A stretch of DNA of 64,000 nt from Spinacia oleracea (lineage: Eukaryota; Streptophyta; Magnoliopsida; Caryophyllales; Amaranthaceae), in assembly GCF_020520425.1 (NCBI RefSeq), contig NC_079492.1, positions 140,248,361-140,312,360 on the forward strand, in the 5' to 3' direction. Made by a program: the position numbers and the translations under genes. Below are positions 6,609-61,942 of the stretch, piece after piece. The notes beneath the pieces were generated by a model. The model searched no databases. It had not been told where the DNA came from and saw only the letters and a program-made list of their open reading frames with translations. The number at the start of each line of letters is the position of its first letter. Within the stretch, counting starts at the first letter, position 1.

Positions 6609-6666
6609 AACATACACAAAACTTTCTTACTAATGAACTCAAACTCATAAACACCGACTGTCGGAA

Positions 6667-8797
6667 ATGGCTGACAACAGAAAAAAGCCTTTGCATATAG
6701 CAATGTATCCCTGGTTTGCTTTTGGTCATCTTACTTCTTTCCTCCATTTAGCTAACAAACTTGCGGAGAAACACCATAAAATCTCCATTTTCCTTCCAAC
6801 TAAAACCCAGACCAAACTAGCCTCCCACAACCACCACCCCAACCTCATCACTTTCATCCCCCTCACTCTTCCAACTGTACCAGGGCTACCTCCTGAGGCG
6901 GAGACAACCAATGATTTGCCACCCTCGGCATGGCCTCAGTTAATGGATGCAATGGATATGACTAGAGACATCATTGACTCCCATCTGTCAAATCTCAAGC
7001 CTGATTTTGTGTTCTATGACTTTGCCTTTTGGCTACCTGAGGTAGCCTGCAAGCATGGTTCAAAGTCCATTTGTTATTACGCAACCTACTTAGTGAATCT
7101 TGCTTATGGTCACCCGCGCAGTAGAAATCAGCCTGCAAACCATCAGTTTACAGAGGCTGAATTGATGCAGCCACCGCCTAATTCTCCTTGCGAAGCTGTT
7201 AGGCTACTGGGCTGTGAGGCCCGGGAGTTGTCACGTGTATTCAAATTTGAATTTGGTGGAGGGATATCGTTCTTAGAAAGGATTACCATCTGTTTTGAAG
7301 CAGGAGATGCTCTTGCTGCTAAGACTTGTAGGGAGATGGAAGGAACTTATTGTCACTTTGTTCAACAGATTTTGAAAAAGCCAGTCCTTGTGATAGGGCC
7401 TGTGGTGCCTGAATCACCAGCTTCCCAGCTTGATCATCATTTTGATTGTTGGCTAAAAGAGTTTGGCAGTGCTAGTGTCATCTATTGTGCTCTTGGAAGT
7501 GAGCGTGTCCTAGATAAGGATCAGTTTCAGGACCTTGTTCTAGGATTGGAGCTCACAGGTATACAATGTTAAAAAAGTATTTGCACGCGTGTTTTTCTTT
7601 ATTTAACTAGCTTCTGAGCCCGTTCAATGAACATCCAATTATATAGTAGTTGTTAAAAGGTATTTTTTGTTAGAGTTATCATGAATCATCATAGCAACGA
7701 GCTAAAAGCCCGCGTTGATATTATCACCGGATTATGATTTATATAGAGGTGAAATTTGAAAGTTAAAAAAAAATCTAAATTAGATGGTGGATTAATATCA
7801 AGTGTTAAAGAGGGAAATGAGGTGGAAGAGATTATATGAATTAAATGGTGAATTGATGTTGTATGAGGAAGATGGACTGGAAGAAGTGTTGAAGCTGTAA
7901 AATATTTCGTAGAACAAGCAACAAAAGGAATAATTGAAAAAACAGAACAAATTAATGGATGAAAGATGAGAATGACATATGTCATCTAATAATCTATGGT
8001 CTGCTCTCTAAATACTAGGTATAGATTCGTTGATCTAATGATCTCTCATGGGCAGTTGTTATGTTTCAAGTGTTGGTAGATAGTGAAAGTGTTCTAGGAA
8101 AAGACCAGTTTCAGGAGCTTGTCTTTAGACTTGAGCTCATAAGCATGCACTTAGACCTGTTTAACGGGTCGGGCCACCCCGGGATTATACTATATTTTTC
8201 GGGCTGGGCTATATTTACAAAGAAGTGCTCTTTATACAACACCACAATACCCACTAAAGATGCCACAGCACTATATATACCTTTTAATTTGACTATATCC
8301 TTGCAGGTAGGCCATTCCTGGCGGCCCTGAAGCCACCTACAGGTTACAAAACAATAGAGTCAGCCTTACCTTCCGGGTTTGAAGAGAGAACAAAAGGAAG
8401 GGGAATCGTGCACGGAGGTTGGGTACAACAACAGCTGATCTTACAACATCCTTCAGTGGGATGTTTCGTGACACATTGTGGAGCAGGATCTCTATCAGAA
8501 GGTATGGTAAGTGAATGTCAACTAGTGTTTTTACCTCAAGCAGTGGATCAGTTCCTGAATGCAAGGTTGATGAGCTTAGAATTGAAGGTTGGAGTGGAGG
8601 TTCAAAAGCAAGAGAATGATGGTTTCTTCACCAAGGAGGCTGTTAATAAGGCGGTGTCGACGGTGATGGAAGAAGGAAATGAAATTGGGAAAGAGGTGAG
8701 GTCTAACCATGCTAAATGGAGACAGTTTTTGTTGTGGGAAGGTCTTGAAGAGTCTTATATGAGTAGCTTCATTCAGAGCCTGCAAGAGTTGCTTTGA
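6667..8797 (+). CDS. UDP-glycosyltransferase A, UGT79/cyclo-DOPA 5-O-glucosyltransferase-like
   Basis: Two exons, 6667-7558 and 8307-8797, phase-1 GT-AG intron, 460 aa (usual size of plant family-1 GTs). The N-terminal acceptor domain has [20 protein letters not shown] with the catalytic His (about residue 21) and FYDF with its partner Asp (about 118). The C-terminal PSPG box is 44 residues, 336-379, starting at W of [15 protein letters not shown], with HCGAGS and ending AVDQ; the final Gln is usual in UDP-glucose users. The style of the PSPG box and the [13 protein letters not shown] start are those of UGT79-type glycosyltransferases, a group that to my knowledge also contains the cyclo-DOPA glucosyltransferases. 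The substrate is not decided by sequence. First of three same-strand paralogues. Its intron holds a small Helitron and a relic of an exon-1 3' end, hinting that the gene is a fusion of two tandem copies. Expected to be cytosolic: no signal peptide seen. Confidence 0.9.
7607..8025 (-). mobile_element. small non-autonomous Helitron in UGT A intron
   Basis: Read on the minus strand it starts TCTATACCTAGTATTTAGAG after an A and ends in CTAG followed by T. Before that 3' end lies a weak palindrome (GTTCATTGAAC on the minus strand) that would form the terminal hairpin. The interior is AT-rich and has no Rep/helicase frame. Ends are more decayed than those of the Helitron at 9226-14560, so the call is moderate. 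Confidence 0.5.
8069..8145 (+). pseudogene. relic of a UGT exon-1 3' end inside UGT A intron
   Basis: The segment reads [21 protein letters not shown], the counterpart of the last codons of exon 1 ([14 protein letters not shown] in UGT C). It is an additional copy, lying between the real exon 1 end (7558) and exon 2 (8307). QFQEL matches UGT B and C better than UGT A's own QFQDL. The donor site is lost (ACAGGT has become ATAAGC), so it should stay in the intron. After it comes a CCCG-rich fragment of hAT type (8146-8210). Confidence 0.75.
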
Positions 8798-9225: not shown

Positions 9226-9684
9226 CTAGTCTTATATGCACGCGATGCGTGCGAGATTGTATAAAAACTAAAAATTGCGTATTGATAAACTCGTCAAAAT
9301 ATACTTAAGTCACTATCTAAATAGAGATTACATTGATCAAATTCCATCCAAGCAACATTTATGTTATGTTACTCATCTGCTTCTCATTGTTCAATTTCAT
9401 AAACCCAATCAGATCCTAAAAAAATTCAAAATAGCTAAAAAGCAGTTCGCATCATACAAAATCAGTAGATCAACATAAACTGATAGGAATTAAAGAAGCT
9501 ACAAAACTATATGGCGGGCTTAAAATGAGTCATGTAGTCAATCAATCACCAATATAGCATTTAGATGACTCAACTTCTTGTTCTCGCTCATAGCTTCCAT
9601 GGTATCTCATAATCTCAACTAAATACAACTAAATACATATTCTAATAGCATTGGCTATCAAGCAATTTCTTTCATTCTAACATT

Positions 9685-9825
9685 ATGATATTGGAACAAA
9701 AAAATAAAAGAAGTCCAACAACATATAAAAGAAGGGTCCAAAAAATAAAAGAAGTCCAACAACATATAAAAGAAGTCCAACAACATTATGGTAATATTGT
9801 GCCAGTCCAACAACATATATCAAAA
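9685..9825. repeat. short tandem repeat AAAAGAAGTCCAACAACATAT
   Basis: A unit close to AAAGAAGTCCAACAACATAT is repeated about five times with variation (one unit has GGGTCCAAAAAAT). It lies near the 3' end of the large Helitron; no function can be assigned. Confidence 0.6.
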
Positions 9826-10145
9826 AGTAAAGTATCTAGATTTAGACCAGCCAGTCTCCTGCAAAAGAATATGTCTTCTTTGCAGCTCAAATTTAACCTG
9901 CAAATTAGTTCATAATTAGTGTCAAAGAAATCACCCATATTGTAAGACTTAACAACGGCAAGAGATCTAAACCTGAAAGAATGTAGTAGGTGATATAGAG
10001 AACCGAAGATTGGCAATATAATCATGAATCATGGGTTCTTTGATATCCATGACCACTTCAATCTCAGAATGAGATGTAAGTATAGGTAAGAACAAAATGG
10101 ATTATCAGCAGGAGCTGCATTGGATATGCCTTTATGCTAAGACAT

Positions 10146-10257
10146 CAGCAGAACACTGCAGCAGAACACAGCAACTGCTACTTTCCTAACCTGTCCTTGG
10201 TTTCTCTTGACTGAATCCTATGAATTTGATTCACTCTATTGCTGCAGTGTTCTGCTG
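10146..10257. repeat. inverted repeat around CAGAACACTGCAGC
   Basis: The left arm CAGCAGAACACTGCAGC (10146-10162) is exactly complementary to the right arm GCTGCAGTGTTCTGCTG (10241-10257), with a loop of about 78 bp. It lies inside the large Helitron and could fold as a short stem-loop in a transcript. Confidence 0.6.
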
Positions 10258-10958
10258 CTGTCTCACGGTATTGAGCAACAACAAAAACCATAAGCATCGA
10301 GCGATGAGTTGACAGGGTGTCGTATCACTGCTCTTGTCGAAGCTAATCGCCTCAACTTTTTCCGATTCCTCACATGATATTCTCTCAAAAAAATATAACA
10401 GAATCATCCTTCAACTTTGACCTGCAAAAAAATCAACCAAATTCAAACAAAGATCGTTGAAAATTCTGAGGAAACCACCAATCAATATTCAATCACCAAA
10501 AAATTCAATCACCAATCAAATTCAACCACCAAAAAGTTCAAATTATGTACCCAACGACAGACAGAAAGAAGAGTAAATTGCGGTATTACTGTGGCAGAAA
10601 GTATATAATTAGACTTCAGAACAAAAATCAAAATACCTATTCTCAATTTCTATAATTTGCTGATAGAATCACACAAAAAACGCAAGATTGATTTCCAAAT
10701 GAACAAGGATGGAAAACCCACGCTTTGTTCTTCAGATAAAATTTAAGCAAACCCGAAAAATTCGCAGATCAAAAATCAAATAAAGATTGATTTTATTTAC
10801 ATATCATAGAAAAATCTAAGAAATTGATGGACGACAGCGACGGAAAACCCCCAAAATCATCCCTCAAAATTATAAATCAATTCAGACAAAAATTAGTTTT
10901 CCTTCAACTTAATTATCAATAATTAAACAATAAAATAATAATTAAGCGGTAAATATAC

Positions 10959-11225
10959 CTTATGATCGGAAGATAGAGGAATTGCGACGCCTTTACGGCA
11001 AAGGACATTGCGTGAATCGCCGTAATTAGATACGACGATTTTCTCCGGGGTTACAGCAGAGACAACGGTGGTAGATCCCACGGCGTCGCACTGAGGTGTT
11101 TGATACTCACGACAGCTCATTGACGTCGTAGGGCCGGCGTTGTTCTTTGATCTCTCTCCTACCTCGTTGTCCATCAACTTAAAGCTCTGAGACATCGTCT
11201 CAGTCCACTCGATATTTTCTTCTTT
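10959..11225 (-). pseudogene. captured exon of a clade-A protein phosphatase 2C
   Basis: An 89-codon open exon bounded on the minus strand by an acceptor (TTTTTTGACAG) and a donor (AAG|GTATAT). It encodes QTPQCDAVGSTTVVSAV, TPEKIVVSNYGDSR and VLCRKGVAIPLSSDHK. These match the PP2C core of ABA-signalling (AHG3/HAB-type) phosphatases, where ANCGDSRAVLCRNG is usual. An internal Met (11195) opens a 90-residue frame running past the donor. Metal-binding motifs before and after this exon are absent, so no active phosphatase is expected. It lies downstream of the RGTA fragment in the same orientation, within the Helitron. Confidence 0.85.
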
Positions 11226-11333
11226 CTGTCAAAAAATAATCAGAAATATAATTAAAAAATTGCAATAAAAAAATACAGAAAAGTAAATCAAACCTATGCA
11301 AATTAATCTATAAAAGTAAAACGGAGCACTTAC

Positions 11334-11680
11334 AACGCGGAGTTCCTCATTCAAAATAGAGACAGGATCAGAAAATGCTCAACAGCAAGTTTCCAATAGT
11401 TCCAGGCAGTGGAGAATTCTGGATTAATCTCAAGAAGCTTTGCGCTGATTTCTACAGCTTCTTTGGCGTAACTGAAACCCATATTCAAAAAAGATATATA
11501 CATTAGATATCATAATTGTGTGTAAGAGAGAGAGGGAGACACACACACATAGAAAGATAAATACTTTAGATTGTGATGATAGTTGATAAATTGGGATTGA
11601 AGAGTGCGTTATTGAGCGGTTTTGGCAGCAGAAGCGGCTTCATCTTCGGGCTTTGAAGGGTTTCTAGGTTGTCCATGCAT
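11334..11680 (-). pseudogene. captured exons 1-2 of Rab geranylgeranyl transferase alpha subunit
   Basis: Exon 1 (about 11564-11680) begins [20 protein letters not shown], the start typical of plant RGTA1, and after an in-frame TAA continues RTLQSQFINYHH. Exon 2 (11334-11471) reads YAKEAVEISAKLLEINPE and WNYWKLAVEH, an alpha-prenyltransferase repeat; after a frame change it reads DPVSILNEELRVV before a GTAAGT donor. The intron between them keeps a TTTCAG acceptor. The copy is damaged by the stop and by a small internal deletion or frameshift, and lacks all later repeats. It is a Helitron passenger. Confidence 0.85.
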
Positions 11681-12090
11681 TTTTCCAACAATGTCACGCC
11701 AGCTGCAAATGGAGAAGGTTAATTGAAGATAAAATATGTGTTTGAAGGGTTTCACTGCAAATCATGACTCTAGCTCTATATTCATACAGAGTTCAGAAAT
11801 TCAATAATTCTCATAAAATAGTCGATCAGAATGGAGTCATACACTCAAACAAACATTGATACATCTATCTCAATCTCCAGTTAATATGCACAGATCAAAC
11901 ACAAAACAAACGGGACCGATGATAACTGTTTTCTTCCAGCAAAAATCAACAAAACCCGGAATTTGACTCACGAAAAATGAACATAGAATCATATAAAGCA
12001 TCAAAACAACAAATATTCCCAGAAATCAATCGATCCAGATAATAACTGTTGCAAACAATATTGAGTAATTTTTACAGTCATATATTGGAG

Positions 12091-12258
12091 TACTATTTCA
12101 ACCAAAATCAATACCAATATCTAGCCTTATATTGGAGTACTTTTGAATTTCATCAAAGCAAGTACTATTTCAACCAAAATCAATACCAATATCTAGCCTT
12201 ATATTGGAGTACTTTTGAATTTCATCAAAGCAAGTACTATTTCAACCAAAATCAACCA
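12091..12258. repeat. 72-bp tandem repeat, about 2.3 copies
   Basis: The unit starting TACTATTTCAACCAAAATCA recurs at 12091, 12163 and 12235, exactly 72 bp apart, and the first two units look identical. It lies inside the large Helitron. The 24-codon period keeps one frame open, which explains the spurious reading frame over it. Confidence 0.85.
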
Positions 12259-12339
12259 GCCAACTGTCAAATCCCATAAAAATAAAAATTCACAAATAGG
12301 TAAAATTAAATTAGTAAAAACAAATTAATAAAATTAAAT

Positions 12340-13860
12340 CAAATGAAACTCACCACTGATGTGCGATTTATGCTGCATCATACTTGAACTTCAGTTTGTT
12401 TGCATTTACAGTCTCCATAACATTGAAGTCTGGCATTGTCATTTAGTTGAGCTGGTATCTTTGAATAAGCTTCTTCTGCCACCCTCATTTAATGACACTG
12501 GCAGATTCCGTTCACACATGGACAATCCTCTAATTTGCAGTCATTGAGGCTGCTATACCGATCTGGCTTTGCTTCAGTTCCAGATTCTTTTGAAAGTGTT
12601 AAACCTGGTAAGACTCACAATGATGTATTAGATACTTTTAATAAATGCTAAATTATTAATTGTAGTGTCACATCTGTAGTTATGTAAATAGTGGGAAGAA
12701 GAATAAGCAATGCACTTCTGGTAAGGAAGGGATTGTGTTTTCTTTACCAAATGAAATAGCGAAGAGGATCACCAACAGAACTCAGACCGCCAAAGCGAAA
12801 GCTTTAGTCAAGCGAAAACTTTTGTGAACCAATTTCTTTTACAAAAATAAATAAATTAATGGATCTGTCACCCAAGTCACCGCATCATAAGCACAATTAT
12901 ACTTATGTCAACAATATAGTTATGGAGTCGGAGAGAAATATGTGAAGCATTAAGCAAAATCATACACTCCCAAAATTAATCAAAACAGAAGAGCAAAACC
13001 CATGTTAACAACAAACCTAAGTAGGTGATCTCTATGCCTCTATACCAAAAATAACAACTCACTCGTCAAAATGGTTTCTCGTCGCAATCCGGAAACCTCA
13101 ACCGCAAAATAGATGAGAACAATTACTCTTAAATTTTGAATTTATCCAGAAAAAAGCAACAAAAGCTAATAGTTTTAGGTACATGATCTCATTTAGCATC
13201 AAATCTTGGCGTTGCAAATTACATCAAAGATTTTAAACAAATAGAAAAACGATCGTCAAAAGTCGTAACTACAAAAACACAATGCACTAATATTTACCAA
13301 TTTACTTAAAACAAATTATCAATTGAAATCTCAACTTAATTATCCCGTGTAAGGAAGAAGCAGGTTCACTTATATCGACAAAAAAATAAAATTACAAAAA
13401 AAAAAAGTGTTTCAGTCCTTCGGAATTCGACTAAAATAAGGGAACACACACAAAAATCAACAAACCCACACTGATGCACCAGAAAACAGAGTAGGAGCAT
13501 AGAAATCATGGCAAAAAATCACCTATCCCAGTAACCCTTCATTCATTATGCACAAAGCGCAAATTACAAATTAATTAAGTACCCTTCAATTCCAAATAAA
13601 AGAACTTAAATTGAACCCTAAAAATCCAAATCCCCAAAATTTTAGAACACCCAAGTTCATAATTTTCAAAAGAAAAATCAAAAAGAACTTGAAACCTCAA
13701 AATTCCGACTTTTGGGGAAAATTTGAAATTTCCACCATATCTACATTAAAATCAAACAAATTAACCTCAAATCAAATTCAAAATTAAAAACTCTAGGAGT
13801 GATAAACAAATAATTCCATAAAATAACAACAACAAAATTCAAACAAAAATAAAAACCCTA
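12340..13860. other. interior of large Helitron without recognised gene
   Basis: About 1.5 kb between the SF3B14 and RGTA passengers. A GC-richer patch at 12360-12620 has exon-like features on the plus strand (TTTGCAG at about 12532-12539 and CTGGTAAG at about 12606), but no family was recognised from any frame. The remainder is AT-rich. Confidence 0.35.
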
Positions 13861-13944
13861 GGAGAGAGAAAGGTACCTTGAGGACATCATCGGTGTGCTA
13901 AGGAGCTCGATCTTATTCTTCAGGTGGTGATCTTCTGAGTATTT

Positions 13945-14019
13945 TTCACGAATTTGGCGAATTGATCCCTAATTCCCGAAAATGTCGTACATTTCTTCCC
14001 TGGTGATGTTGAAGTGCAT
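13945..14019 (-). pseudogene. captured piece of SF3B14/p14 RRM protein
   Basis: The minus strand reads [15 protein letters not shown], one stop, then GSIRQIR. This matches the RNP2 and first helix of the branch-site protein p14/SF3B14 (usual form [25 protein letters not shown]). Downstream codons to a donor at about 13877 do not continue the RRM and may come from another source. It is too short and broken to function; a passenger of the large Helitron. Confidence 0.75.
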
Positions 14020-14106
14020 ATCAGAGGAAGAATTAACCAAAATGCGTCAAGTGCAAAGGACCTAAAACCCTAAAACTAAGTTTAACCAAAGATCTAATCA
14101 AAATAC

Positions 14107-14299
14107 CTGAAGATTATGAAGCTTGATGTAGTTCCAAGTCGCTGAGGGTGGGAGAGACCAAAATACCTCTATTATTTTTGCAGAAAGGAGGCTTCGATCT
14201 TTTTGCAGCACCAGTAGCGGTCGTTGATGCGGTGGTGAAGGAATTTGCTGCCGCCAATAGAGCTCTGCATTTCCCTCCGATTGACCTCAGAGTCGCCAT
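14107..14299 (-). pseudogene. captured N-terminal exon of a SWIB/MDM2-domain protein
   Basis: Starts MATLRSIGGKCRALLAAANS, an organellar presequence-like N-terminus, then ILVSPTLSD, and after a frame change [10 protein letters not shown] before a CAG|GT donor at 14107. SPTLSxFLG and WxYIKxHNLQ are both characteristic of plant SWIB-domain proteins. The stretch that should link them is missing, so the fragment is internally deleted. It is the passenger nearest the Helitron 5' end. Confidence 0.8.
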
Positions 14300-14566
14300 T
14301 AAAGAGGGACGACGGCGAGGAAGTGTAACCTAGGAAGTCTAACCTAGAAACGAAGGTGAGAGGAGAGAGAAAAGTGAGAGGGAGAGAGAGAGAGGGGCAG
14401 GTGAGAGGAGAGAGATGGGATAAACGAAACCTCGCCCTAGAAACGAAGGCTCAGCAAGCCCCGATAAACAACCAATGAGGGGTATTTTCGTCTTTTTGCT
14501 TGGGGACACGAAAAGTTGAGTTACCAAAATACCCTCAGCTGTTCCTTTATATAATAGAGATTACTA

Positions 14567-15190
14567 CTAGTCTTATATGCACGTGATGCGTGCGAAATTA
14601 TTGAAAAAAATTCAAATTGTGTTGCTATAACTAATTAGGACAAATATTAAACATTAAAAAATCATTCGCAAAGTTCATATTTAAAAAGAATGAGACATAC
14701 ATTACGTCAATCTTGCAATCTAAATAGTGAAACAGTTTAATACTCATACCATTACATGACGAAAAATCTAAATCTTAGTACCAAAGTAAAGTAATAAAAC
14801 ATATAAAGTAGTGTCTTCCACTTTTTTCTCTTGCTCGCGATGTATTTGCTTAACCACATGCACTTCTCTGCCCAATCGATGTGCAACGCATAACTAACAT
14901 TATAAGAATGTTATGGATTAAAATCACTAATTGGTGAAGGTAACACCCACGAAAAAGCACTACCTCAATAAAGCCAAAAAAACCACCTAAAAGCTCCTTA
15001 AGAGACCCCAAGAGAGGCAGTCTTAAGGTCACATATCTCTTAAGTCCTTTTTTCGAGGAGTTTTCTTAGTTTAAAGTAAAAAAAAACCACTTGTCTAAGG
15101 AAATATGTATCTTTATCATTGTTTATTTTAATTTAAATAGAAAAAAAGGAATCGTTTTAGTGAGAAAAGAGGTATCTTATAGAATAGAGA
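14567..15190 (-). mobile_element. second, short Helitron placed end to end with the first
   Basis: Minus-strand 5' end TCTCTATTCTATAAGATACC at 15190 after an A; 3' end CTAG at 14567 followed by T, with the hairpin GCACGCATCACGTGC. It lies only 6 bp from the 5' end of the large Helitron and shares its termini. No coding capacity is seen in its 624 bp. Confidence 0.75.
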
Positions 15191-21093: not shown

Positions 21094-21103
21094 TTATATA
21101 TAT
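21094..21103 (+). promoter_or_regulatory. TATA box of UGT B
   Basis: TTATATATAT about 50 bp upstream of the ATG at 21151, in the position seen for the two paralogues. Confidence 0.5.
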
Positions 21104-21150
21104 TGCGGCTAAACTTCAAAGTAACATTAAACAGAAATTTGGCAATCAAG

Positions 21151-24100
21151 ATGTCACAAAACAAAGACTCTTCCCCTGTTCTTAAAGTAGCATTTTATCC
21201 ATGGTTTGCACTAGGCCACCTAACCTCATTCCTCCGCTTAGCCAACAAACTTGCTGAAAGAGGTCATCACGTCTCCTATTTTATCCCTCCCAAAACACAA
21301 TCAAAATTAGCTTCTCAAAACCACTACCCTGACCACCTTACCTTCATCCCCATCCCCGTCCCACCGGTGGACGGGCTTCCTCCCGGGGCGGAGACCACCA
21401 ACGATGTCCCCGCCTCGGGTGGTCCCCTCATCATGACTGCCATGGACATGACTCGTGACACCATAGAAGCCCATTTGGTCCGACTCAAGCCCGATGTCGT
21501 CTTCTATGACTTCACCTGTTGGATGCCTGAACTAGCCCGAAAACACGGGTTCAAAGCCGTACACTATATAACCGCATACATAACAAGGTACGCTTATCTT
21601 GCTCCTTACAAAAAGGTAGCTGGCTACCACCCCACAGCAGCCGAACTATTGACGCCACCTCCGGATTTCCCTTCACAGCTAATCAAGATGCAGCCCCAAG
21701 AGGCTGCTATCATGTCGGGTTTAGGTAAGACGGAATTTGGACTAGGAGGTTTAACATTGGCTGAAAGGCTAGGTGTATCGTTTCGAGAATGCGATGCTTT
21801 TGGAGTCAAGACTTGTGAGGAGATGGAAGGGGCTTATTGTAAATATTTTGAGGATATTTTTGGTAAGCCTGTGCTACTAGCAGGGCCAATGGTCCCTAAA
21901 CCGCCATCTTCGAAACTTGATGAGTGTTTTGATGATTGGCTTAAGGGTTTTGGTACTTCTAGTGTTGTATATTGTGCTCTTGGAAGTGAATGTTCTCTAA
22001 AATTAAACCAATTTCAAGAGCTTCTTCTTGGACTTGAGCTCACAGGTATGTCCAATCTCGTTTTTTACTCTGTTTATTGCATTATTGTTGTTATCTAGGT
22101 GTTCTGCTCGTGGGAAGAGTATCCTAAGAGCATCAATACTAGCACATTCTTAAAGAGAGAAAAATATTTAAGAGTTAGCACTTAATAAGAAAAAAAGAGT
22201 TAACTCTTAATTATGTTTTATTTAGAGGTTGATTAAGACATCGTTTAAATATCCGATAACTCTTAGAAACAAGAGGGGTGGTGATGTGCATGATTGTAGG
22301 ATTATTGTATATGCTTTTCACATTTTAGTTATTAAAAAAAACATGTAAAAAAAATATACTTCTTCCATATTTTAAAAAGTATAAAAGGTATTTAAGAGTT
22401 AAGAGGGAGTAAAAACTACTTAAGAGGGAGTAAATAAGAGATACTCTATTTCTTAATTTTATTTTATTTTAATTTTTATATATAACTCTTACTCCCTCTG
22501 TATTTTTAAAAAATATACATATTAATCGGCACATAGTTTTAGGAGAGTGAGTTAAATTTATTAAAATAAGATGAAAGCGGGGTAGTAGGTGAATTATTTA
22601 TCATAGTAAAAAGATGATGTAAGTAAGTGTAAGAACCACAAGAAAGAGAGAAATATTATAATGGAAGTGGGTACCAAAACATGTCAAGAAAGAAAAGTGT
22701 ATCTCTTTTTTAAAATACAACCGTTTAAAGAAAATGTATCTCTTTTTAAAATATAGAGGGAGTATTAAGAATTTAAGAAAGGATATAGATGAAGAGAGAG
22801 ATTAAGAGTGGGCAAATAACAGATACCTCTATTATTGATGTTCTAATGTTAATTTAACATTGTTGGGAGGCTCAATTGTGGTGAGACAATCATGTATTCA
22901 TGTGCCAGTACAGAAGAACTATATTCCAATCTCAGATATATTTTTGTCAAAACATATCAGACAAAAAATAATACTCAGAAGTCCAAAAATGGTACTCGGA
23001 AGTTCAAAATGGTGTTCATTTCTCAAATATGGTACTCAAAAGTTTTCAAAATAATAGTGAAATTACCGCATAGCCCTCGAATATGTGTTTGGAAACACAT
23101 CTCTAAGACAAACCTCTCCGCCCTCGTCATGAAGACTTACAGAGTACTCCATAGACCGTAGTGGGCCTAGTGGCGTAGTTGGTTCGCTTAGCTAGTTTGC
23201 CTGTTTGGCTAGCATATAAGTATGCGCTATGTGCGTTGGGCCTATTGCGCCTTGGCTACACTCGTCTGCTAGTATTTGTTACATACTCGTACTTAATTAT
23301 GTACAGTAGACCAGTAGTGTGTATAAAGAATTAATTAAAGATGTTAGGTAACATTAATATTAAGAAAACTAAAACTTTTGACTTTTTGAGCAAGCTAGTA
23401 AAACAAATGGTTATTGGGGAAATTTTGATTACAAATGTTTTATGGGTTATTGCGTGTACCTGATCCATAATACTCTATTAGAGTGGATCTAAAGTCAGTA
23501 CGAAGTAGTTTTTCTACCAATCCTTTTACATAATATATAATGACTATAATAAATTAAACACCGATTTTCTTATATAAAGCAATCATTTTTTTGAATCAAA
23601 GTAATCCTTTTTTTTTAAAGTAAAACTTGATTTAAAATCACATCATTCAAACGCAATTTGTATTAACGATACCAATTTGATATTATTTTCCTAATAACCT
23701 ATAAATATGCCAAAATAATTTAGAAACAAATTGTTGAAAATAAATTTTGATGGATTAGGTCCATCTAAGAATTGGTGATGTACTTTTTATATGCGTGTTT
23801 GATACCCTAAACAATTAAGCATAAACCAAGATACTAAAATCGGTTAGCGAAAAACCAATTTCCCTAGACAAATAAACAAAATTTGTGTGATGTGTAGCAA
23901 GTAATATGCATTAGTTTGCAGGAATGTAAATATGTAATGGGCTATAAATATCATTACCTTTGCAGGAAGGCCATTTTTGGCGGCCTTAAAACCAGCAATG
24001 AATCACGAAACAATAGAGTCGGCTTTGCCAGAAGGGTTTGCAGACAGAATTAAAGGAAGGGGGATCATACACGGTGGTTGGGTTCAACAACAACTGATCT

Positions 24101-24456
24101 TACAACATCCATCCGTGGGATGTTTCATAACTCATTGTGGGGTTGGATCTATTTCCGAAGCTATGGTAAGCGAATGTCAAGTGGTGTTCATGCCTCAAGC
24201 AGTCGACCAGTTCATCAATGCGAGGCAGATGACATTAGATTTGAAGATAGGTGTCGAGGTTGAGAAAGATAATGATGGTTTGTTCACTAAGGAGGCCGTC
24301 TGTAAGGCGGTCTCCTTGGTGATGGAAGAAGATAGTGAAGTAGGGAAAGAGGTAAGGGCTAGTCATGCTAAATGGAGAGAATTTGTTTTAAGGGAAGGTG
24401 TTGAAGATTCTTATATTAGTAGCTTCATTCAGAGTTTACGACAATTGATTGCATAA
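21151..24456 (+). CDS. UDP-glycosyltransferase B, UGT79/cyclo-DOPA 5-O-glucosyltransferase-like
   Basis: Two exons, 21151-22045 and 23966-24456, joined in phase 1 exactly as in UGT A and C, 461 aa. The acceptor domain has FYPWFALGHLTSFLRLANKL (catalytic His) and VFYDFTCW (partner Asp); the PSPG box runs from [15 protein letters not shown] through HCGVGS to QAVDQ. GLPPGAETTNDVP and ALGSE are shared with the paralogues. Exon 1 has more GC at third positions than its surroundings. The 1.9-kb intron contains a Tourist-like MITE that itself holds a Stowaway MITE. No lesion is seen, so it should be functional; substrate is inferred only from family resemblance. Confidence 0.92.
22128..22843. mobile_element. 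Tourist-like MITE in UGT B intron, split by a Stowaway
   Basis: Ends GAGCATCAATA / TATTGATGTTC with a 3-bp TAA on both sides (22125-22127, 22844-22846), as in PIF/Harbinger-related MITEs. Subterminal AAGAGAGA..TTAAGAGT words are mirrored at the far end. The Stowaway at 22492-22762 is nested within. Confidence 0.7.
22492..22762. mobile_element. Stowaway-like MITE nested in UGT B intron
   Basis: Inverted ends CTCCCTCTGTATTTTTAAAA and TTTTTAAAATATAGAGGGAG flanked by TA (22490-22491, 22763-22764). Confidence 0.8.
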
Positions 24457-25483
24457 ACATTTTGGTATCAAGTCAACGTGTTTTTTTTCATATACAAAGG
24501 TTGCTTCATCGAACCTGTTACGTACAATTGCATGTATTCCACTCTAGCTTCACAGTTAATGCCTCTTGTTTTATAAATTGGTCTTATTTCAAGTGTTGTA
24601 CTTTGTCATTTCTATGGAATGCTTTTTAACGAATAGTAAAATGTCTTTTGGCCATTTTAGTGTAACTGCATCTAAACCACATTGTCATTAATTGTTTTCG
24701 ATTTGTACCATTTATAAACTCTTAAAACTAAGCCGAGCTTGCCTTTGGAGAAATTATTCCCTCTCCAATTAATATCAAGGTTTGAGGGAGCCAAGGGGAT
24801 ACAATACATAGAAATGGTGTGCAATATAAAGATGACACTGGCCGGGTCGGGCTGCATGTCACAAAGCACGATAAGGCTCAACACGAATAAAGTTTGGCAC
24901 AACATAAGCACAAAGTTGTGGATCGTCCTCGTAACAATTTTTTAAACAAAGTACGAGAAGACACATCACGACAAATCACGTCAAATAAAGTAAAGTTAGC
25001 TTATGCACATAAGTATGACACCACAACGCCAAGAGGGAGTGTGTGCTTGGGCTAGGCTTGGACCATCCTTTTGAAACTTTTGTCACGACACAAAAAACTA
25101 GTGGGTCGGATCTGTTCACACCCAAATTAAACACAAGAACTCGACTCGAGACACGATCCGACATGATCCACTACCATCTTTACGGTAATATAATTATTTA
25201 TACGATGAAATCTTCTAGAATAGACTTAGACTTGGACCACCTTGCGACTTTGGTACTTTTTTGAAGTCAACAAACAACTAATAGTTTCATAATTTCATTT
25301 GACTACTATCTAGAATACGTTAATGGGTGACTACGTCAGTGCTTAGGTTTGTGCCTTGCCATCAATTATTCTGGTTTGCATATTTTAGTAAGATTTTCCT
25401 GTTATTGTCACATGAGCTGCATAGGAGTTTGAATTCAAAATATATTAAAACTTTATCAATTTTATTTTTTCTTACAAAAGGGC
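24457..25483. other. intergenic between UGT B and UGT C
   Basis: About 1 kb with the 3' UTR of UGT B and the promoter of UGT C. A degenerate CCGGGTCGGGCTG / GTGGGTCGGATC stretch (24840-25165) looks like an old fragment of CCCG-rich transposons. No gene is seen. Confidence 0.5.
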
Positions 25484-25492
25484 TATATATAT
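25484..25492 (+). promoter_or_regulatory. TATA box of UGT C
   Basis: TATATATAT about 65 bp upstream of the preferred ATG at 25553. Confidence 0.5.
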
Positions 25493-25552
25493 CTTTTAAT
25501 AACTTGTTATTACTTAAGAGTCAAATTAATGTTGCAAAAGACAGAAAACAAA

Positions 25553-28107
25553 ATGTCCAACAATAACAAAAGCAAGAGTTTGCACATAGCAATGTACCCT
25601 TGGTTTGCTTTTGGACACTTTACCTCTTTTCTCCATTTAGCTAACAAATTTGCCGAAAGAGGTCACAAAATCTCATTTTTCCACCCTACCAAAACACTCC
25701 CTAAATTGTCCACCCATAACCACCATCCCAACCTCATTACCTTCATCCCTATTAGTGTCCCGCCTATCGACGGGCTGCCTTTAGGGGCCGAAACAACCAA
25801 TGACGTGCCGGCCTCAGCCCGACCTCTCATTATGGACGCCATGAACCTTACTCGGCCCGTTATTGATTCGCAACTTGCTCTTCTTAAGCCCGACTTCATC
25901 TTTTTTGACTTAACTGAGTGGTTGCCGGATGTGGCTCGAAAGCACTCTGTGAAGTCAGTATACTTTTCGACCGTTTACGCCGTCGCTTTTGCTTATCTTA
26001 GCCCACCGGCTCGTAACGTGCCAGATAACTATCGCTTCAACGAGGCCGACCTAGTAGACCCACCACCGGGTTTTCCATGCTCCGATATAAGATTACGGGC
26101 CCACGAGGCCCGTGAATTCGGAGATCTATGTTCGAGGGACTTTGGAGGGTTGCCGTTTATGGAAAAGAATGTAAGGAGTTTTAAAGAATGTGATGTTGTT
26201 TGTTTCAAGACTAGTAGGGAGATGGAAGGGGATTACTGTGATTATGTTGAGAAGCATTATGGGAATAAACCTGTATATCTAACGGGACCTATGGTGCCTA
26301 AACCGCCATCGTCGAAGCTCGATGACTCCTTCGATTGTTGGCTGAAGGGTTTTGGTAATGGTACACTCGTGTATTGTGCACTTGGAAGTGAATGTGTTCT
26401 TGACAAAGATCAATTTCAAGAGCTTATTTTGGGGCTTGAACTCACTGGTACGTAGTATGACATAGCCATTTTTTTTGTCCGTAATTAATTAAAAGCCGCA
26501 TTTTATTTATTTATCAAATATAAAAAAGTGTGACTTATCCTTAAAAAATATCTACATTTTCAACAAATGGAGGCCATTTTTCCTAATTCATACCAATATG
26601 TCAACGTATACGTTGTACTCCCTCCGTCCCTTAATACTCGCACCGATTTGATCGGTGCGGAGTTTAAATTATTTGAATTGATTTATTAATTTGATGGATG
26701 TTAGTTGATAGTGGGGTATTTTTTTAATATTGTTAATGGGAAATGTGTAAGGGTAGGGAGTGGTGAGTGGGAGGTGTGGATTTTTAAATGATTTTTGTAG
26801 GGAGTAGGGGTGTAGGTGGGGTAGTAGGTAAGTGTGAGAAATGATATAATATTGGTAAAGATTTCCATTTATAGAAGCGGTGCAAGTATTAAAGGACAAC
26901 CCGAAAAGAAAAACGGTGCGAGTATTAAGGAACGCAGAGAGTATAATTTAAAACAATAAAATTTTCACCTTGTGTTATCGTACACCACGATGAGTTTTAC
27001 CCGACTTTTCTTTTTTTATAACCTTTACCTAATTTTTTATAATTTTTATTTATAAAAGAAAAAATTGATCGATAGAAAAATATTTTAAAAGGTTTAATTA
27101 TTAATTTATATGATTTTGAAGAAATAACTTTTATTAAAATGAAAAATTCCATCACTAAAAAGATAACTTTTACATATATAAGGGTAAGTATTAAGCATTT
27201 TGAGTTTGTTTTTACCGTGTTGTATAATATTTATTGTACATGCACCACTTGTAAATATAACACTACAAGAAATTGTACCATTAACGACGGGAAATCCCGT
27301 CGCTAAAGGCCAATAGTCGTTGATTAATGACGAGATTTCTTGTCGCGAACCCGTCATAAAAGGGGACTGTCGTTAATGAAAAATCCCATCGTAAAAGACA
27401 TTTGCGACAGTCGTTCCCGTCTTTGTTTGGTTGTTAGCCCCATCGCAAAAGGTTTTTGTGACGAAATTTTTAACCCTTCAATTCGTAATTAGGTTGTTAT
27501 TAAAAATACAAATTCTTGTAGTGTAAATCCGTGATAATCTATTCCTATAAAATTTTAAATTAACTAAGCAATTGTTCTTTTTTGTTGATAAAAATGTTCT
27601 CTTTTCATACTTCCAGGTAGGCCATTTTTAGCTGCATTACGACCACCTAGCGGATATGAAACAATTGAACAAGCCTTACCAGAAGGATACTCAGAAAGAA
27701 TTAAAGGGCGAGGAATAATTGATGGTGGTTGGGTGCAACAACAATTGATGTTACACCATCCTTCCGTAGGGTGTTTCGTGACTCATTGTGGCGCGGGATC
27801 TTTATCAGAAGCTATGTTAAGTGAGTGTCAAATAGTGTTGATACCTCAAGCAGTAGATCAATTTATCAATGCAAGAATGATGAGTCTCGATTTGAAAGTT
27901 GGGGTTGAAGTAGACAAGGGAGAAAATGATGGTTTGTTTACCAAACAAGATGTTTTTAAAGCAATAGAGGTGGTAATGGAGCAAGAGAGCATAGTAGGGA
28001 GAGAGGTGAGAGCTAACCATACTAAATGGAGAAACCTTTTATTAGAGGAAGGGCTTGAGGAATCCTATATCGATGGATTTGTTCAAAGTCTACAAGGTTT
28101 ATTTTGA
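25553..28107 (+). CDS. UDP-glycosyltransferase C, UGT79/cyclo-DOPA 5-O-glucosyltransferase-like
   Basis: Two exons, 25553-26447 and 27617-28107, phase-1 intron, 461 aa. I chose ATG 25553 (MSNNNKSK) because it aligns with the starts of UGT A and B; an in-frame ATG at 25529 would add eight residues. [20 protein letters not shown] carries the catalytic His, FFDLTEW the partner Asp, and the PSPG box runs from GWVQQQLMLHHPSVG through HCGAGS to QAVDQ. DGLPLGAETTNDVP and [18 protein letters not shown] match the paralogues. The gene follows UGT B by 1.1 kb. Its intron contains a Stowaway and a CACTA MITE, unrelated to the insertions in the sister introns. Probably active; acceptor unknown. Confidence 0.92.
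26618..26941. mobile_element. Stowaway-like MITE in UGT C intron
   Basis: Inverted ends CTCCCTCCGTCCCTTAATAC and GTATTAAGGAACGCAGAGAG with TA on both sides (26616-26617, 26942-26943); subterminal CGCACCG/CGGTGCG. Confidence 0.85.
27261..27523. mobile_element. CACTA-type MITE in UGT C intron
   Basis: Ends CACTACAAGAAATT / AATTCTTGTAGTG with a 3-bp duplication TAA (27258-27260, 27524-27526). The body has repeated CGTCGTTAA / CGACGGGAAATCCCGTCG words. Confidence 0.85.
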
Positions 28108-44500: not shown

Positions 44501-44927
44501 ACAATTTGCCTTTTATTGGGTTGTAACTAAAATATTAAAAAACGATTTTTTTTTTTTAAAAAAAAAGTCATTTGCAACGCACATTTAGCAACGCACATTT
44601 AGCTAATGTGCGTGGCAAATGACTTTTTTTTTTCCGCCTAAAAGTCATTTGCATCGCACATTTAGCTAATGTGCGTTGCAAATGACTTTTCAGGCATGGT
44701 GCTGAAAAGTCATTTGCGTCGCACATTTAGCTAATGTGCGTTGCAAATGACAAGTCATTTGCAACGCACATTTGCTAAATGTGCGACGCAAATAAGGTTC
44801 ATTTGCGTCGCACAAATGTGCGACGCAAATGACTTTTAGTCATTTGCGTCGAGAGCTTTTGCCACGCACGATGTGCGACGCAAATGTGCTTAAAAGTGCG
44901 ATGCAAATGACCCTTTTTCCACTAGTA
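41564..44927 (+). mobile_element. 3.36-kb CACTA (En/Spm-like) element inside the F-box gene
   Basis: Left end CACTAGTGGAAAAA, right end TTTTTCCACTAGTA, 3-bp duplication CAA (41561-41563, 44928-44930). Both ends carry dense subterminal arrays of TCATTTGCGTCGCA/TGCGACGCAAATGA (41580-41850 and 44565-44910), typical of CACTA transposase-binding regions. No transposase frame is seen, so it is non-autonomous. The interior carries the 5' part of a host-like gene. Strand refers to that cargo. Confidence 0.85.
41930..43361 (+). pseudogene. 5' end of an unrecognised host gene carried by the CACTA element
   Basis: Three exon-like blocks: a CT-rich leader ending TCCATCAG|GTACAC (42133), a second exon 42450-42500 ending in ATG|GTAAG, and a third 43295-43361 beginning after ACAG. 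Spliced, the ATG joins directly to MANMPEKLNQCKLDARREQC. I recall similar K.ARREQ.LSQ starts in uncharacterised plant proteins but cannot name the family. After 43361 (CAAG|GTCCTG) no further coding exon is evident, so the gene is truncated. Confidence 0.5.
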
Positions 44928-45637
44928 CAAACAATGCTTCCCATTTCATCAACACCATAGAATTCTCCCCGGTAAAAAGTGATATCATGGCAATTATATA
45001 ATGTGGAGTAAACATCCCCATATTTCACAAACGTATCCCATTCACAACTCCCGTTCCTCCAGAACGACACGATTTCGTGACGGATACTTAAGTTTAAATA
45101 AGGTTCGGATAAAACCAACGCGATTGTGTAATCGGAAGTGGTTGAAGGGTTCTCTGACAAGACGAATTTGTCAAAACAATGTATTCCATATTTATCATGA
45201 TAAATATACCCACCACGTCCGGCTTGATTCCAGATCCTTACTTTAGGAAGGTTTATTACGACACCGGACAAAGGATTTAGGAGACACAGATTTTTACCCT
45301 CTTCTGTCACAGATAGCAACCATCCACGTGATGATAACAGCCTTTTCTCGTTAGGGTTAGGCTGCGGGAGACTGAAACGGCGAACTTGCTGGTTATAGAA
45401 GCTATAAAAACGACGTTGATTCGAGGTGTCGTCTTTCTCAGGAAGCATAAGCCATGGCACCCTTGATACTGATACTGTTAATGATTTGCTGTTGGCTTGA
45501 AATTTGGCCTGCTTGGCGGCTGATCGCCAACGTGAGCACACAAACCCGAATACCTCAAAGTCTTCTAACAACTCAAAGTGTTCAGCAATTTTAGTGGCAA
45601 GATCATTGGGTATATGTATATTACCCCAGTCTGCCAT

Positions 45638-45996
45638 TATTGATGCTGTTTAACAAAATAATCTAAGAGGAAATCAATTAATAACAAAAAACCTAAGAGG
45701 AAATCAACTAAGAAGATTATTATGATTCGTTATAAACCCTTCAAATTCGGCCATGGAAATGCCAGAGTTTAGGGTTTTTTTTTCTTCCGCCTCTTATTAA
45801 TAGTGGTTTCGGGTTGAATATTTTGGGCTCAAGTACAAATGAAACTAGTAAACCTATGAGGTCTTAGCCCAAACACTGAGGGTTTTAGTACAACATATAT
45901 CAATTACTCCGTAGTAATTTATATTGCATTTGCACCCAAAAAAATTAATTTTAAGTGGTCGTGTGGGTTGATGCGTGTAATTTTCAGTTTATAATA
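45638..45996. other. upstream flank of the F-box gene
   Basis: About 360 bp containing the promoter and leader of the minus-strand F-box gene; a near-duplicate AAACCTAAGAGGAAATCAA occurs at 45664 and 45693. No gene. Confidence 0.45.
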
Positions 45997-46030
45997 CTAG
46001 TGTTATATGCACGCGATGCGTGCGAGATTA
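45997..46030 (-). mobile_element. Helitron 3' end, 5' end not found
   Basis: Minus strand ...GCACGCATCGCGTGCATATAACACTAG followed by T: the same hairpin and CTAG end as the 9226-14560 element. The matching TCTCTATT start was not found before the LTR-element fossil at 46.3 kb, so the copy is truncated. Confidence 0.6.
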
Positions 46031-48003
46031 TATATTGTCTCTATTTTATAATACGATAGTACTACGTATCCCTCTTACTTCGCATAACCTCCAATGTGCC
46101 CTTATTAGAAAATAAAATTTATCTCTCTGATTTGTATATTTTGATTATGAACGACTCGAGGGACGGCTACCATCGAAATGAAAGAAAACTTAACAACGAG
46201 ATTAAATGTGATCAACCAATATATAATGAACCATATAGAATTTTTACGTTCTTTTTGTTTGACAACCGAATACGAAGTACAATATTAGAAGCTTTCAAAA
46301 TACCAAATGGGGATTGTAAAACAAATAGGGCCCAATGTTGCTAGCCATTGAACTCCAAGAACCATATCACAACCCCCCAAGGATATCAACATCATATCAG
46401 CTGTAAAAGTTCTCCCTTGCATGGTCCAAGTGAACCCTTTGGAGACATGTTGACATGCTAGGTGATTTCCATCAGCTACTGTTACATGCTGAGAAGGTAT
46501 GGATTCAATAGTACAACCCAATTTCTTAGCTAACTCCAAATCCAAGAAGTTGTGAGTGCTACCAGAATCAACCAAAACATGGAACAATTTATTATTCCTA
46601 GTGCCTGTCACCCTCATTGTTTGGAAATTCTGGTTGCCAGACAATGCATTAAGAGATAAAATTGGTTCAGCTACTCCAGTACTATCCAACTCATCATCCC
46701 CATCATCCTCACTAACATCTGACCCTTTCTCCTCATTACTACTGGATATTTCCACAGTGAACAACTGTGGTTCTTTGATTTGGCATTTGTGTGTTCTGTC
46801 ATATGGTGCATCACAGTAATAACACAAACCCTTAGCAATTTTGCCAGCCCTTACATCTGCTGGAATGTGCCTAAAGTTCTTGGCATATCTTGGGTTGAAT
46901 TTGGTCATTTGAGTAGGTTTTGTATTTGGTGTAGGTAGTAGTGCAGGCAGGCTAGCATTTGTGGGTTTGCTGAAGTTCAAAGGTATGGCTTGAATGGCTT
47001 TTTGTGAATAAGAATTTGGCTTGGTTGTATAAGGTTCCTGTGAAAAAGCAATAGTCTGTTCTTCTTGAAGCCTAGCAAATTCAACAGCTTCAGCAATGGT
47101 AATAGGTCTAAAAGCCCTAACAAAAGGTTTCACAGTTGGGTTTAAGCCTCCAATAAAACTTTCCAACACAAACTCTTCAGGCAATTCATGGTGAGTGTTC
47201 AAGACATCAGACTTTAAATCTTCAAAATTGTCTAAATATGACCCTATGGAATCAGTTTGCTGCAACTTATTGAATTGTTCTACTGTGTTAGTTCCCCTTA
47301 CATCTTTAAATCTTGCAGACAAATCCAGACAAAATTCACCCCAATCAACATTCCTTTTAACTGACAAATAACTTGTCACCCATTTTTCTGCCTTGTCAAT
47401 CATGTTCAATGATGCCAAATCCACCTTATGTTCATCACTCACATTACACCTGCACTTTTTAATCCAAACTCTACTGTTTGTACCATCGAATTTTGGAAAA
47501 GAAATTTTAGGATTATACCCAAAAGTTTTAGGAGAATTACCATCCTTGGTAGCACCAGTATTCTTACTGTTTTCAGAAGTGGAATCTCTCATATTATTCT
47601 TCATCTCCAGCAGCAGATTCATCAAACCATCAAGTTTCTTGGACTGATCTTCAATCTGAGCAGATTGACTTTCCACTCTTCTTGATTGCTCGAGCATTTT
47701 CTCCTCCAATTGTTTCAGATGATCATCCATTGCACGTCGAGTTGCAGGAGCCAAATTGCTTTGATCAATCAATTCCAGAAGTTTCTGTTCCCTAATGTGA
47801 ACCCAGATTCTGCGATTGATTTCTTAATAGACTACACTAGATTAGCAATCATCAAGTGTAATCAGAGTAGCTCTGATACCAATGTTGCAGGATACTTGAT
47901 CCTGTTGCCAACTTTGTGACAGATTACAGAATTAAGAAGAAGAAGAAGAAGATAGTTTGCACCAGAAGAAAGAAGAAGAAGATTCAGAAACAGGAGAAGA
48001 GAA

Positions 48004-58210: not shown

Positions 58211-60174
58211 TTAGGCTTGCTTCTCCCAAACACAATAGTCATTTCCATAAGTAGAAACTTTAAAATTGGAGGGAATAAGATTTCCAAGATCAGTTCTTGT
58301 TCCAAGCTTAACTATAATCTTGCCATCAATCATTGCTGCATATAAGTCTGCATTAGAGGCCATTATATTGACACTACTTGTTTCACTTATTGCGTTCCTT
58401 TGCCTGATCGAAGTCAGTTTTACAATTTCTTCCTTGAGCCCCCATTGAAAATAATGATCATAGAACTGCATAACAAAATATCGTAGAGAATTTAATTAAA
58501 CATAATAAACAATTAAACATAACATCAAAGTACGTATAGTTGTGTTAAAATCGAAATGAAAGTACTTACTATGGATGGAATTCCTGGGTGTGTGAGAATA
58601 TAAGCATATCCTAGCATGACTTTGTCAGAGGGAAAGGGCCATAAGTTTTGGGTTGATCCGGTATCATGATTATCAATAAAAGTAACTGCATTTTTGGGCA
58701 TAATTCCTATCAACCCACTGGGCCTGCCATTCGGGTCCTTCATCCTCCACCATTCACCTTCAACAGCAGCTGCAAGAATACATTTGGTAGTGAAATCAAA
58801 TGCAGAAACAACACCACCACCAGCAGCTTGTACCCATCCTGCAAGTTCATTTCTGGGGCCGTCTTGGTTGTAGTCTGGTTTGCCATCAGGATCATAGTTT
58901 TCTTTATCCCACAACTCTCCAACTGCAAAATCTGGGTTTGTCTTTTCCATGTAAATTTTGGTAATGCTAGGAGCATATCCCTTTACAAAATCAAATCTCC
59001 AACTATCAAAACCAATCTCAGACTTAAGCCAATTCATCCAATCTATCAACTCCTTTTGTACTCTTGGATTAAGATGGTCAATATCAGGGGCTGCACCATA
59101 ACCAGCCCCTGTGTCTAGATTACCACTCCCATCAGAATATGGAGTATCATCCCTACAGATAGCCCAAGGACCCCAATCGAGGCGATCATCAGGCGTACCA
59201 CCTTCGAAAATGCAGTATATTCCTCTTCCATCTTTTTTATCAGCACACCTATGATTTATGACTATATCTGCAACACACTTTATTCCTTTTTGGTGGAAAG
59301 CACTAATCAAGCTCTTCAAATCAGCCGCATTTCCGTATCTAGATGAGTCAAGATCATATAATCTTCCAGGTAAATATCCTGAACATCACACACAAACATA
59401 ATTTAAAAGACAAGTTAAATTAATTGATTAAGCTTCTTTGTTGATCGATATTACATGCAATCCAAAATGACTCTGTATGTTACCTTGAGGAGAAACAGAG
59501 TGAGTTGGTGGAGGAAGCCAGACATGGGTAACTCCGGCTCTAGCTATGTCATCGATCGAGCTTCTGAGTGAATTGTACCACCCTCCTGGTTTGTTGCATG
59601 ATTCCCAGTTGAACCCCTGAAGACCAAATAAGGATTAAGGATGATGATATGATATTCATTAATCATGCTAGCTAATTAGAAGCTAAGACATTTAATTTAC
59701 AGAGTGTGTACTCCCTCCGTCCCGGAATACTTGACCTGTTTTTCTTATCGGGTCGTCCCTTAATACTTGACCTGTTTCTAAAAATGGAAATATTCTAACA
59801 ATATTATATTATTTCTCACTCCACCCCTACTAACCCACCTACCCCCTACTCCATACAAAAAATAATTAAAAATTCAACTCCTACTCTCCCCAACCCTACC
59901 CCTTTACACATTTCCCACTAACTACATTAAAATAATACCCCACTATCAACTACTACCTATTAAATTAAATAAGTTAATTCAAGTCCCTTAAACTCTGTGC
60001 CGGTCAAACCGGGTCGAGTATTCCGGGACGGAGGGAGTAATAATTAATCATGCATGCATGCTAATAAGATCGATTACTGACCTGAAACAATAAGGTAGAA
60101 GAAGTACCAAAATGGAAGTGAAGTAAGAATGAGATATTTAGGCAAAGGAAAGTGAGAAGATTGAAGATCTTCAT
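58211..60174 (-). CDS. AMY1: secreted alpha-amylase (AMY1-like, GH13)
   Basis: Four exons on the minus strand: 60174-60082, 59616-59484, 59378-58570, 58465-58211; 429 aa. The first 30 residues ([20 protein letters not shown]...) are a signal peptide, so the enzyme enters the secretory pathway. Then [37 protein letters not shown] (nucleophile Asp about 205), AVGELWD (acid/base Glu about 230) and FIDNHDTGS (Asp about 314) give the complete GH13 triad. It hydrolyses internal alpha-1,4 bonds of starch. Length fits plant AMY1 (about 420-430). Exon 3 holds most of the barrel. The C-terminus ends [11 protein letters not shown], the C-domain sheet. Intron 1 contains a Stowaway MITE. No lesion seen. 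Confidence 0.94.
59711..60037. mobile_element. Stowaway MITE in alpha-amylase intron 1
   Basis: Inverted ends CTCCCTCCGTCCCGGAATAC and GTATTCCGGGACGGAGGGAG (20 of 20) with TA on both sides (59709-59710, 60038-60039). A second internal copy of the CCCTTAATACTTGACCTG motif follows the left end. It looks young. It is a close relative of 26618-26941. Confidence 0.93.
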
Positions 60175-61541: not shown

Positions 61542-61942
61542 CTAGTTTTAAATGCACGCGATGCCTGCGAATATAAGAAACAGATATGTGTTCTTACATT
61601 TAAACCTGAAATAACATGTAAAAAATATAATATAAATGTGATACGTGCGAATATAAGAAACATATAAGTTAGATAGAGTCGAGCGCATAAAAATAGATTG
61701 TTTAAAATAGTAAGAATTTATTTAAGGGGCTAGATTGATTAAAATGCTTCTTTGGGCTTTTCCTATTGGTAGGTTGTCATTATATTCTCTATTCAGCTTT
61801 GTTGGAGATGATTTTTATTGCAGAGAGGGAGCTAAACGTATGTAATCGCTAAAGCAAATTGTGGATGATATTTTAGTAATCCAAGGGGGACACGAAAAGT
61901 GTATTTACTAAAATAACATCACTTTTTCACTTATATAATAGA
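61542..61942 (-). mobile_element. short non-autonomous Helitron
   Basis: Minus-strand 5' end TCTATTATATAAGTG at 61942 and 3' end CTAG at 61542 followed by T, with a mismatched hairpin CGCAGGCATCGCGTGC. The subterminal GGGGGACACGAAAAGTG (plus strand) matches the ends at 14505 and 35. About 400 bp, no coding. Confidence 0.7.

Follow-up and report, generated by a model that had tools for sequence, protein, structure and literature searches.

Background

A 5′ TC and a 3′ CTRR with a hairpin are the hallmark of Helitron transposons; the same review reports that Helitrons insert near other Helitrons and that antisense cargo lowers the survival of maize Helitrons (PMC12477314). One of the described systems closest to the case presented here is maize helA. 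As given in the accessible text of Dong et al. (2011, PMC3288121), 1,515 helA elements hold 4,645 fragments, 0 to 12 each with a mean of 3, gained stepwise. Here we analyze a 64 kb stretch of the spinach genome (Spinacia oleracea, C6:140248361-140312360; hereafter the window), in which a non-autonomous Helitron of 5,335 bases occupies positions 9226-14560 on the minus strand. We conclude, with a probability of roughly 0.93, that this Helitron carries at least six host-gene fragments, taken up as genomic DNA from separate locations; the estimate covers capture and excludes the question of joining, which is weighed separately below.

For spinach, HelitronScanner lists 1,297 Helitrons making up 0.91% of the genome (PMC6337768), while a read-based survey puts Helitrons below 0.1% and did not find its Helitron cluster in Spinacia (PMC7840529). 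Within the open-licence literature, the available portions of the spinach repeat surveys describe no captured spinach genes. An initial annotation of the window had proposed a Helitron at 9226-14560 with pieces of four unrelated genes, namely a SWIB-domain protein, SF3B14/p14, Rab geranylgeranyl transferase alpha (RabGGTA) and a clade-A PP2C, and had called this a striking load next to a metabolic gene cluster.

Termini and copies of the element

Whole-genome searches covered 894,210,420 bases, and the loci fetched from them are denoted by L-numbers. The element and its ends are as follows.

9226-14560, minus strand: whole non-autonomous Helitron, 5′ end at 14560 and 3′ end at 9226, delimited by its termini, A/T flanks and copies
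14480-14560, minus strand: Helitron 5′ terminus, 75-100% identity wherever matched in other fetched loci
9226-9277, minus strand: Helitron 3′ terminus, with the hairpin GCACGC-ATC-GCGTGC (predicted stem) at 9238-9252, then ATATAAGA, and CTAG at 9226-9229

On the minus strand the element starts at 14560 with TCTCTATTATATAAAGG, that is with TC (in a longer reading, TCTCTATTATATAAAGGAACAGCTGAGG), and its 3′ sequence is ...GCACGCATCGCGTGCATATAAGACTAG, the last base being 9226. The same start is found in three other near-complete copies, and in all four copies an A precedes the 5′ end and a T follows the 3′ end. The coordinates initially proposed are thus exact. The other copies, L015 (C4:119.03M), L016 (C5:97.83M) and L017 (C4:42.60M), lie at Kimura two-parameter distances of 0.0078, 0.0140 and 0.0200 from the window copy; L016 lacks 1.2 kb, and L017 lacks about 0.18 kb and has 0.26 kb additional.

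Termini were mapped in 11 elements, with L012 and L027 excluded from the 5′ count and L013 from the 3′ count (end unclear). The base before the TCTCTA start is A in seven of nine elements and T in the remaining two (L019, L009), and a T follows the CTAG end in all 10 elements with a clear end. The last 27 bases together with the following T have 790 exact matches in the genome, compared to none for a reversed control, so that recurrence of the termini, suggested earlier as a check, is confirmed. These 790 exact 3′ ends favour the HelitronScanner listing and fit poorly with the read-based survey, as far as the available text of both goes. Three more Helitron 3′ ends are present in the window, at 14567-14595, 45997-46034 and 61542-61570; the first lies six bases past the 5′ end of the element, placing two Helitrons head to tail.

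Captured fragments and their parent loci

Six fragments, together 1,814 of the 5,335 bases, match host genes elsewhere in the genome, and a seventh is possible.

10874-11227, minus strand: captured clade-A PP2C, the greater part of exon 2 followed by the two ends of the next intron, 92% and 96% to L056
11313-11797, minus strand: captured RabGGTA, running from exon 1 through intron 1 and exon 2 to the splice donor of intron 2, 87% over 523 columns to L057
12383-12781, minus strand: captured cysteine-rich exon (Cys) with upstream non-coding DNA, 92% to L064 (C1:124.546M), 83-aa open frame
13731-13961, minus strand: captured eIF3e (INT6), intron 1 with the last part of exon 1 before it and about 10 nt of exon 2 after it, 90% and 85% to L060
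13947-14021, minus strand: captured part of the SF3B14/p14 RRM, interrupted by an in-frame stop, 88% over 75 bp to L063
14018-14306, minus strand: captured piece of a SWIB-domain gene, an internally deleted exon 1 and the intron start, 76% identity to L051 across 355 columns with gaps included
12889-13526, minus strand: possible seventh capture, non-coding DNA upstream of a weak Myb-like exon, 87% to L010 and 81% to L011

Aligned to the six candidate parent loci, the element reaches best scores of 96-662 bits, compared to at most 37.4 bits for 100 first-order Markov shuffles of the element. All six fragments lie in the orientation of the element, and the coding strand agrees with the parents in six of six. 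The parent or parent-like loci are at C1:113.0M (PP2C), C1:124.5M (Cys), C2:95.8M (SWIB), C2:99.7M (p14), C3:3.7M (eIF3e) and C5:23.1M (RabGGTA), on different chromosomes or megabases apart, in agreement with the earlier proposal that a Helitron had captured unrelated host genes. All four sources named at that time are real and correctly oriented, with parent or parent-like loci found for each; the number four itself gives way to at least six, since the eIF3e piece and the cysteine-rich exon had been missed.

Pfam did not recognize SWIB, p14, eIF3e or RabGGTA exon 1 in the raw window fragments, and the identities of these four were settled by comparison with the genomic parents. The PP2C piece is recognized directly (PF00481, 3.4e-12; top PDB match PP2C 37, 2.8e-29). 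Its parent L056 (C1:113.005-113.007M) is a PP2C gene with PF00481 at 0.086, 4.5e-18 and 4.2e-31 in its three open reading frames (ORFs), relative to which about 430 bp of intron interior is absent from the element. The RabGGTA piece gives a PPTA repeat at 1.1e-4, under the curated cut-off. Designed TPR proteins top its PDB list by repeated weak matches, with RabGGTA at 0.014-0.11; the parent exon in L057 (C5:23.1226-23.1238M) matches RabGGTA alpha in PDB at 6.2e-11, with more PPTA exons directly beyond. L060 (C3:3.685M) is eIF3e (eIF3_N 1.1e-26; PDB eIF3e 5.7e-23), and L063 (C2:99.741M) is an intact p14 ORF (PDB p14/SF3B6 1.7e-52), the window piece alone reaching p14 at E=0.1 only. For SWIB, Pfam gave no match for two window ORFs, and PDB nothing relevant for the one tried. 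L051 (C2:95.762M) holds a SWIB exon (Pfam 1.1e-8), and a paralog with both domain halves, L040 (C4:149.47M), aligns to the element in shorter, weaker pieces. The PDB search gave no gene identity for the cysteine-rich exon (best E=0.92), and its Pfam matches to EGF1_RECK, Il13Ra_Ig and EB, all below cut-offs, were judged to be chance.

The possible seventh fragment (638 bp) matches L010 (C5:34.464M), whose exon gives Myb at E=0.0054, below cut-off, and may, on this weak indication, derive from a Myb-like gene. L010 and L011 share 1.39 kb at 87%, so that the parent, if it is either, is not distinguishable. A candidate for the Myb-like source might be TSL-kinase interacting protein 1.

A mosaic of related Helitrons

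Eight modules of the element were sought in 57 fetched loci, a chosen part of the genome matches, and 30 of the 57 have a match. The full set is present in the window copy, L015, L016 and L017 (the latter without part of RabGGTA). The combination SWIB-p14-eIF3e-Cys recurs in L028, L020 and L021, SWIB-p14-eIF3e in L013 and L062, and p14-eIF3e in L058 and L059, while L048 has SWIB adjoining a 5′ terminus. Cys only is found in L025, L027 (between termini) and L061. RabGGTA and PP2C occur together, partly incomplete, in L018, L019, L022, L023 and L026; RabGGTA only is found in L009, and PP2C, whole or partial, in L012 and L014, the former also with a 54-base 76% match to the eIF3e module that is perhaps chance. 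L024 retains a 3′ terminus alone. As L058, L059, L061 and L062 are short stretches, further modules may sit outside them. None of the eight modules was found in L010, L011, L065 or the SWIB-family loci besides L040, L048 and L051.

Two blocks thereby appear separately between Helitron termini, the 5′ block in L028 and the 3′ block in L019. Homology to the 5′-block lineage (L028, L020) ends at 12381 and homology to L023, of the 3′-block lineage, at 12356, about 25 bp apart; the latter limit comes from this one locus, at 75% identity there. In the tree of the RabGGTA-PP2C (3′) block the four full copies cluster together with support of 100/99.

Insertion sites and transposase source

Target-site duplications are not expected for Helitrons. 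The sister element L028, in which intact termini enclose the same 5′ block, is inserted in a dispersed repeat, and insertion-free paralogs span its junction at window 26614-26943, window 59649-60039, L046 and, more weakly, L023, with 63-73% identity and the junction without gap or duplication. Empty sites, suggested earlier as a check, are thus available in paralogous form for this sister, but not for the window copy. Without the element, the joined flanks of the window copy would read ...TAGTAA|TATAGTATG...; the paralogous downstream flanks of the neighbouring glycosyltransferase genes within the window hold no empty site for the element. An 18-bp direct repeat (TCTATTAGAAATCAAGCA) stands on both sides of the L015 copy, around positions 2329 and 7586 of that locus.

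RepHel-type PF14214 matches number at least 154 in the genome, a lower bound because 150 of 353 candidates were scored, and thus a source of transposase exists.

Alternative explanations

Four of the six fragments (PP2C, RabGGTA, eIF3e and SWIB) retain introns or the ends of introns, which indicates that the copies were made at the level of genomic DNA. The same introns contradict capture through RNA, in which the element would have trapped retroposed cDNAs; the intronless p14 piece might be quoted for it, yet the parent ORF is equally intronless, and we consider this route extremely unlikely. At the junction of p14 and eIF3e, CGTG is common to both sides, which fits template switching. The co-orientation of the fragments raises a different question, namely whether the element makes a functional chimeric transcript or protein as a case of exon shuffling towards a new gene. 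Splice donors are intact for RabGGTA exon 2, eIF3e exon 1, PP2C exon 2 and SWIB exon 1, and none of the four full copies has a stop in the PP2C exon. Against this, the frames of the window copy are mostly broken, with stops in RabGGTA exon 1 and p14 and deletions in SWIB, eIF3e and RabGGTA exon 2. Compared to the parents, codon changes are 6 synonymous, 8 non-synonymous and 2 gapped in PP2C, 1 synonymous, 3 non-synonymous and one stop in RabGGTA exon 1, and 3 synonymous, 3 non-synonymous and 6 gapped in RabGGTA exon 2, a pattern that suggests no clear constraint. A chimeric gene is therefore improbable, and the fragments are most likely passengers rather than a gene.

How the fragments came together is a separate matter. 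In each capture, replication would have overrun an end of the element or changed template where there was a short homology. Since the two blocks occur separately and homology ends at 12356/12381, the window element may be composite: near 12357-12382 a Helitron with SWIB-p14-eIF3e-Cys would have been joined to one with RabGGTA-PP2C, and the product would then have spread to four places. Capture and joining are inferred steps, and we lean slightly towards this joining of two loaded Helitrons followed by spread. For the broader proposal, that these Helitrons form a pool of multi-gene cassettes whose blocks are joined by element-to-element fusion and not regained gene by gene, we see even odds. 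Stepwise capture on one lineage, with the smaller elements as earlier stages or deletion derivatives and no fusion, is a rival to joining only. It has the published maize model in its favour, at least in the accessible text (PMC3288121), as well as graded sets, such as L009 with only RabGGTA and L012 with only PP2C, and the frequency of internal deletions; what it does not readily accommodate is the occurrence of the two blocks apart between termini and the close approach of the two homology limits, with the single-locus qualification given above for L023. We hold it to be credible at somewhat less than even odds.

Several observations weigh against capture followed by joining as set out here. 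In the 5′-block tree, the four full copies are no group of their own: the supported set (95/92) has six rows and also includes L020 and L028, so that a single join is neither proved nor excluded by this tree. Loss of modules could partly explain the mosaic. A search for the empty site of the window copy found none; the sole paralog found for L017 matches the upstream flank and then diverges just beyond the insertion point, half a site; and the base after the L028 junction is T in two of the four spanning sites and A in two, the sites being diverged. None of the PF14214 matches was tied to these termini as an autonomous partner, and on contig 1 a comparison by eye of RepHel matches with the 3′ ends listed up to 108.8 Mb gave none co-oriented within about 20 kb. 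Finally, a second SWIB exon at L051 was not detected in the whole-genome search, and L051 may therefore not be the true parent.

Other features of the element and the window

The remaining segments of the element comprise the following.

9347-10136, minus strand: 3′-side DNA common to other loci, 93% in L018 and more loci
10140-10263, no strand: 24-nt inverted repeat with arms at 10140-10163 and 10240-10263, enclosing a segment inverted in related loci
12089-12255, no strand: perfect tandem repeat of a 72-bp unit, 2.3 copies, longer by one unit than in the three sister copies
12357-12382, no strand: proposed join of the RabGGTA-PP2C and SWIB-p14-eIF3e-Cys blocks, between homology limits 12356 (L023) and 12381 (L028, L020)

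Two ORFs overlapping 9347-10136 have no Pfam match, and the search of 9280-10870 returned more genomic matches and no recognizable gene. The segment within the 24-nt repeat has the opposite orientation at, for example, C6:125.232M, C3:87.481M and C4:175.068M, as if flipped between the arms.

The metabolic gene cluster proposed beside the element is better described as what looks like a tandem array of three two-exon UDP-glycosyltransferases (UGTs), at 6637-8794, 21094-24453 and 25433-28104, with the Helitron between the first and the second. The genes do adjoin the element, but nothing ties the array to the capture. Pfam UDPGT is found in the three second-half ORFs only; the first ORFs have no Pfam match at E 0.001 but are mutually similar as DNA. 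Elsewhere in the window are a KIB1-4 beta-propeller ORF (44843-45649), a Ty3-type gag/protease ORF (46288-47823) and an alpha-amylase-like fragment (58528-59385).

Conclusions

This dicot case brings parent-like loci, junctions, sister elements and the empty sites of one sister into view in one assembly, so that one could work out in which order the genes were captured and what part element fusion played. If Helitrons do form a cassette pool, their load would grow through merging. For annotation it serves as a warning: PP2C, RabGGTA, p14, eIF3e and SWIB 'genes' in the spinach genome may be transposon-borne fragments.

Like maize helA, as described in the accessible text (PMC3288121), the spinach elements are mostly non-autonomous, end in a 3′ CTAG with a palindrome, hold several host-gene fragments each and show the same fragments recombined among elements; a nested-Helitron origin was proposed there for some elements. 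A PP2C-like gene heads the captured genes named for helA (229 elements), and that such a gene was taken up repeatedly, in two distant plants, may reflect chance or a bias. The six or seven fragments found here fall within the helA range of 0 to 12, and the load once considered striking is for this reason not exceptional. Unlike helA, the spinach element belongs to another plant and has other termini, six parent or parent-like loci have been located for it, and it may join two multi-gene Helitrons. In the available account of Helraiser, a Helitron from bat (PMC4778049), the 3′ hairpin acts as a terminator whose bypass carries flanking DNA along, which is one of the mechanisms proposed here; Helraiser is autonomous and was tested in cells, whereas the spinach element is known from sequence alone. 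Multi-gene capture by Helitrons is a known phenomenon, and the spinach case is new in its resolution, not in kind.

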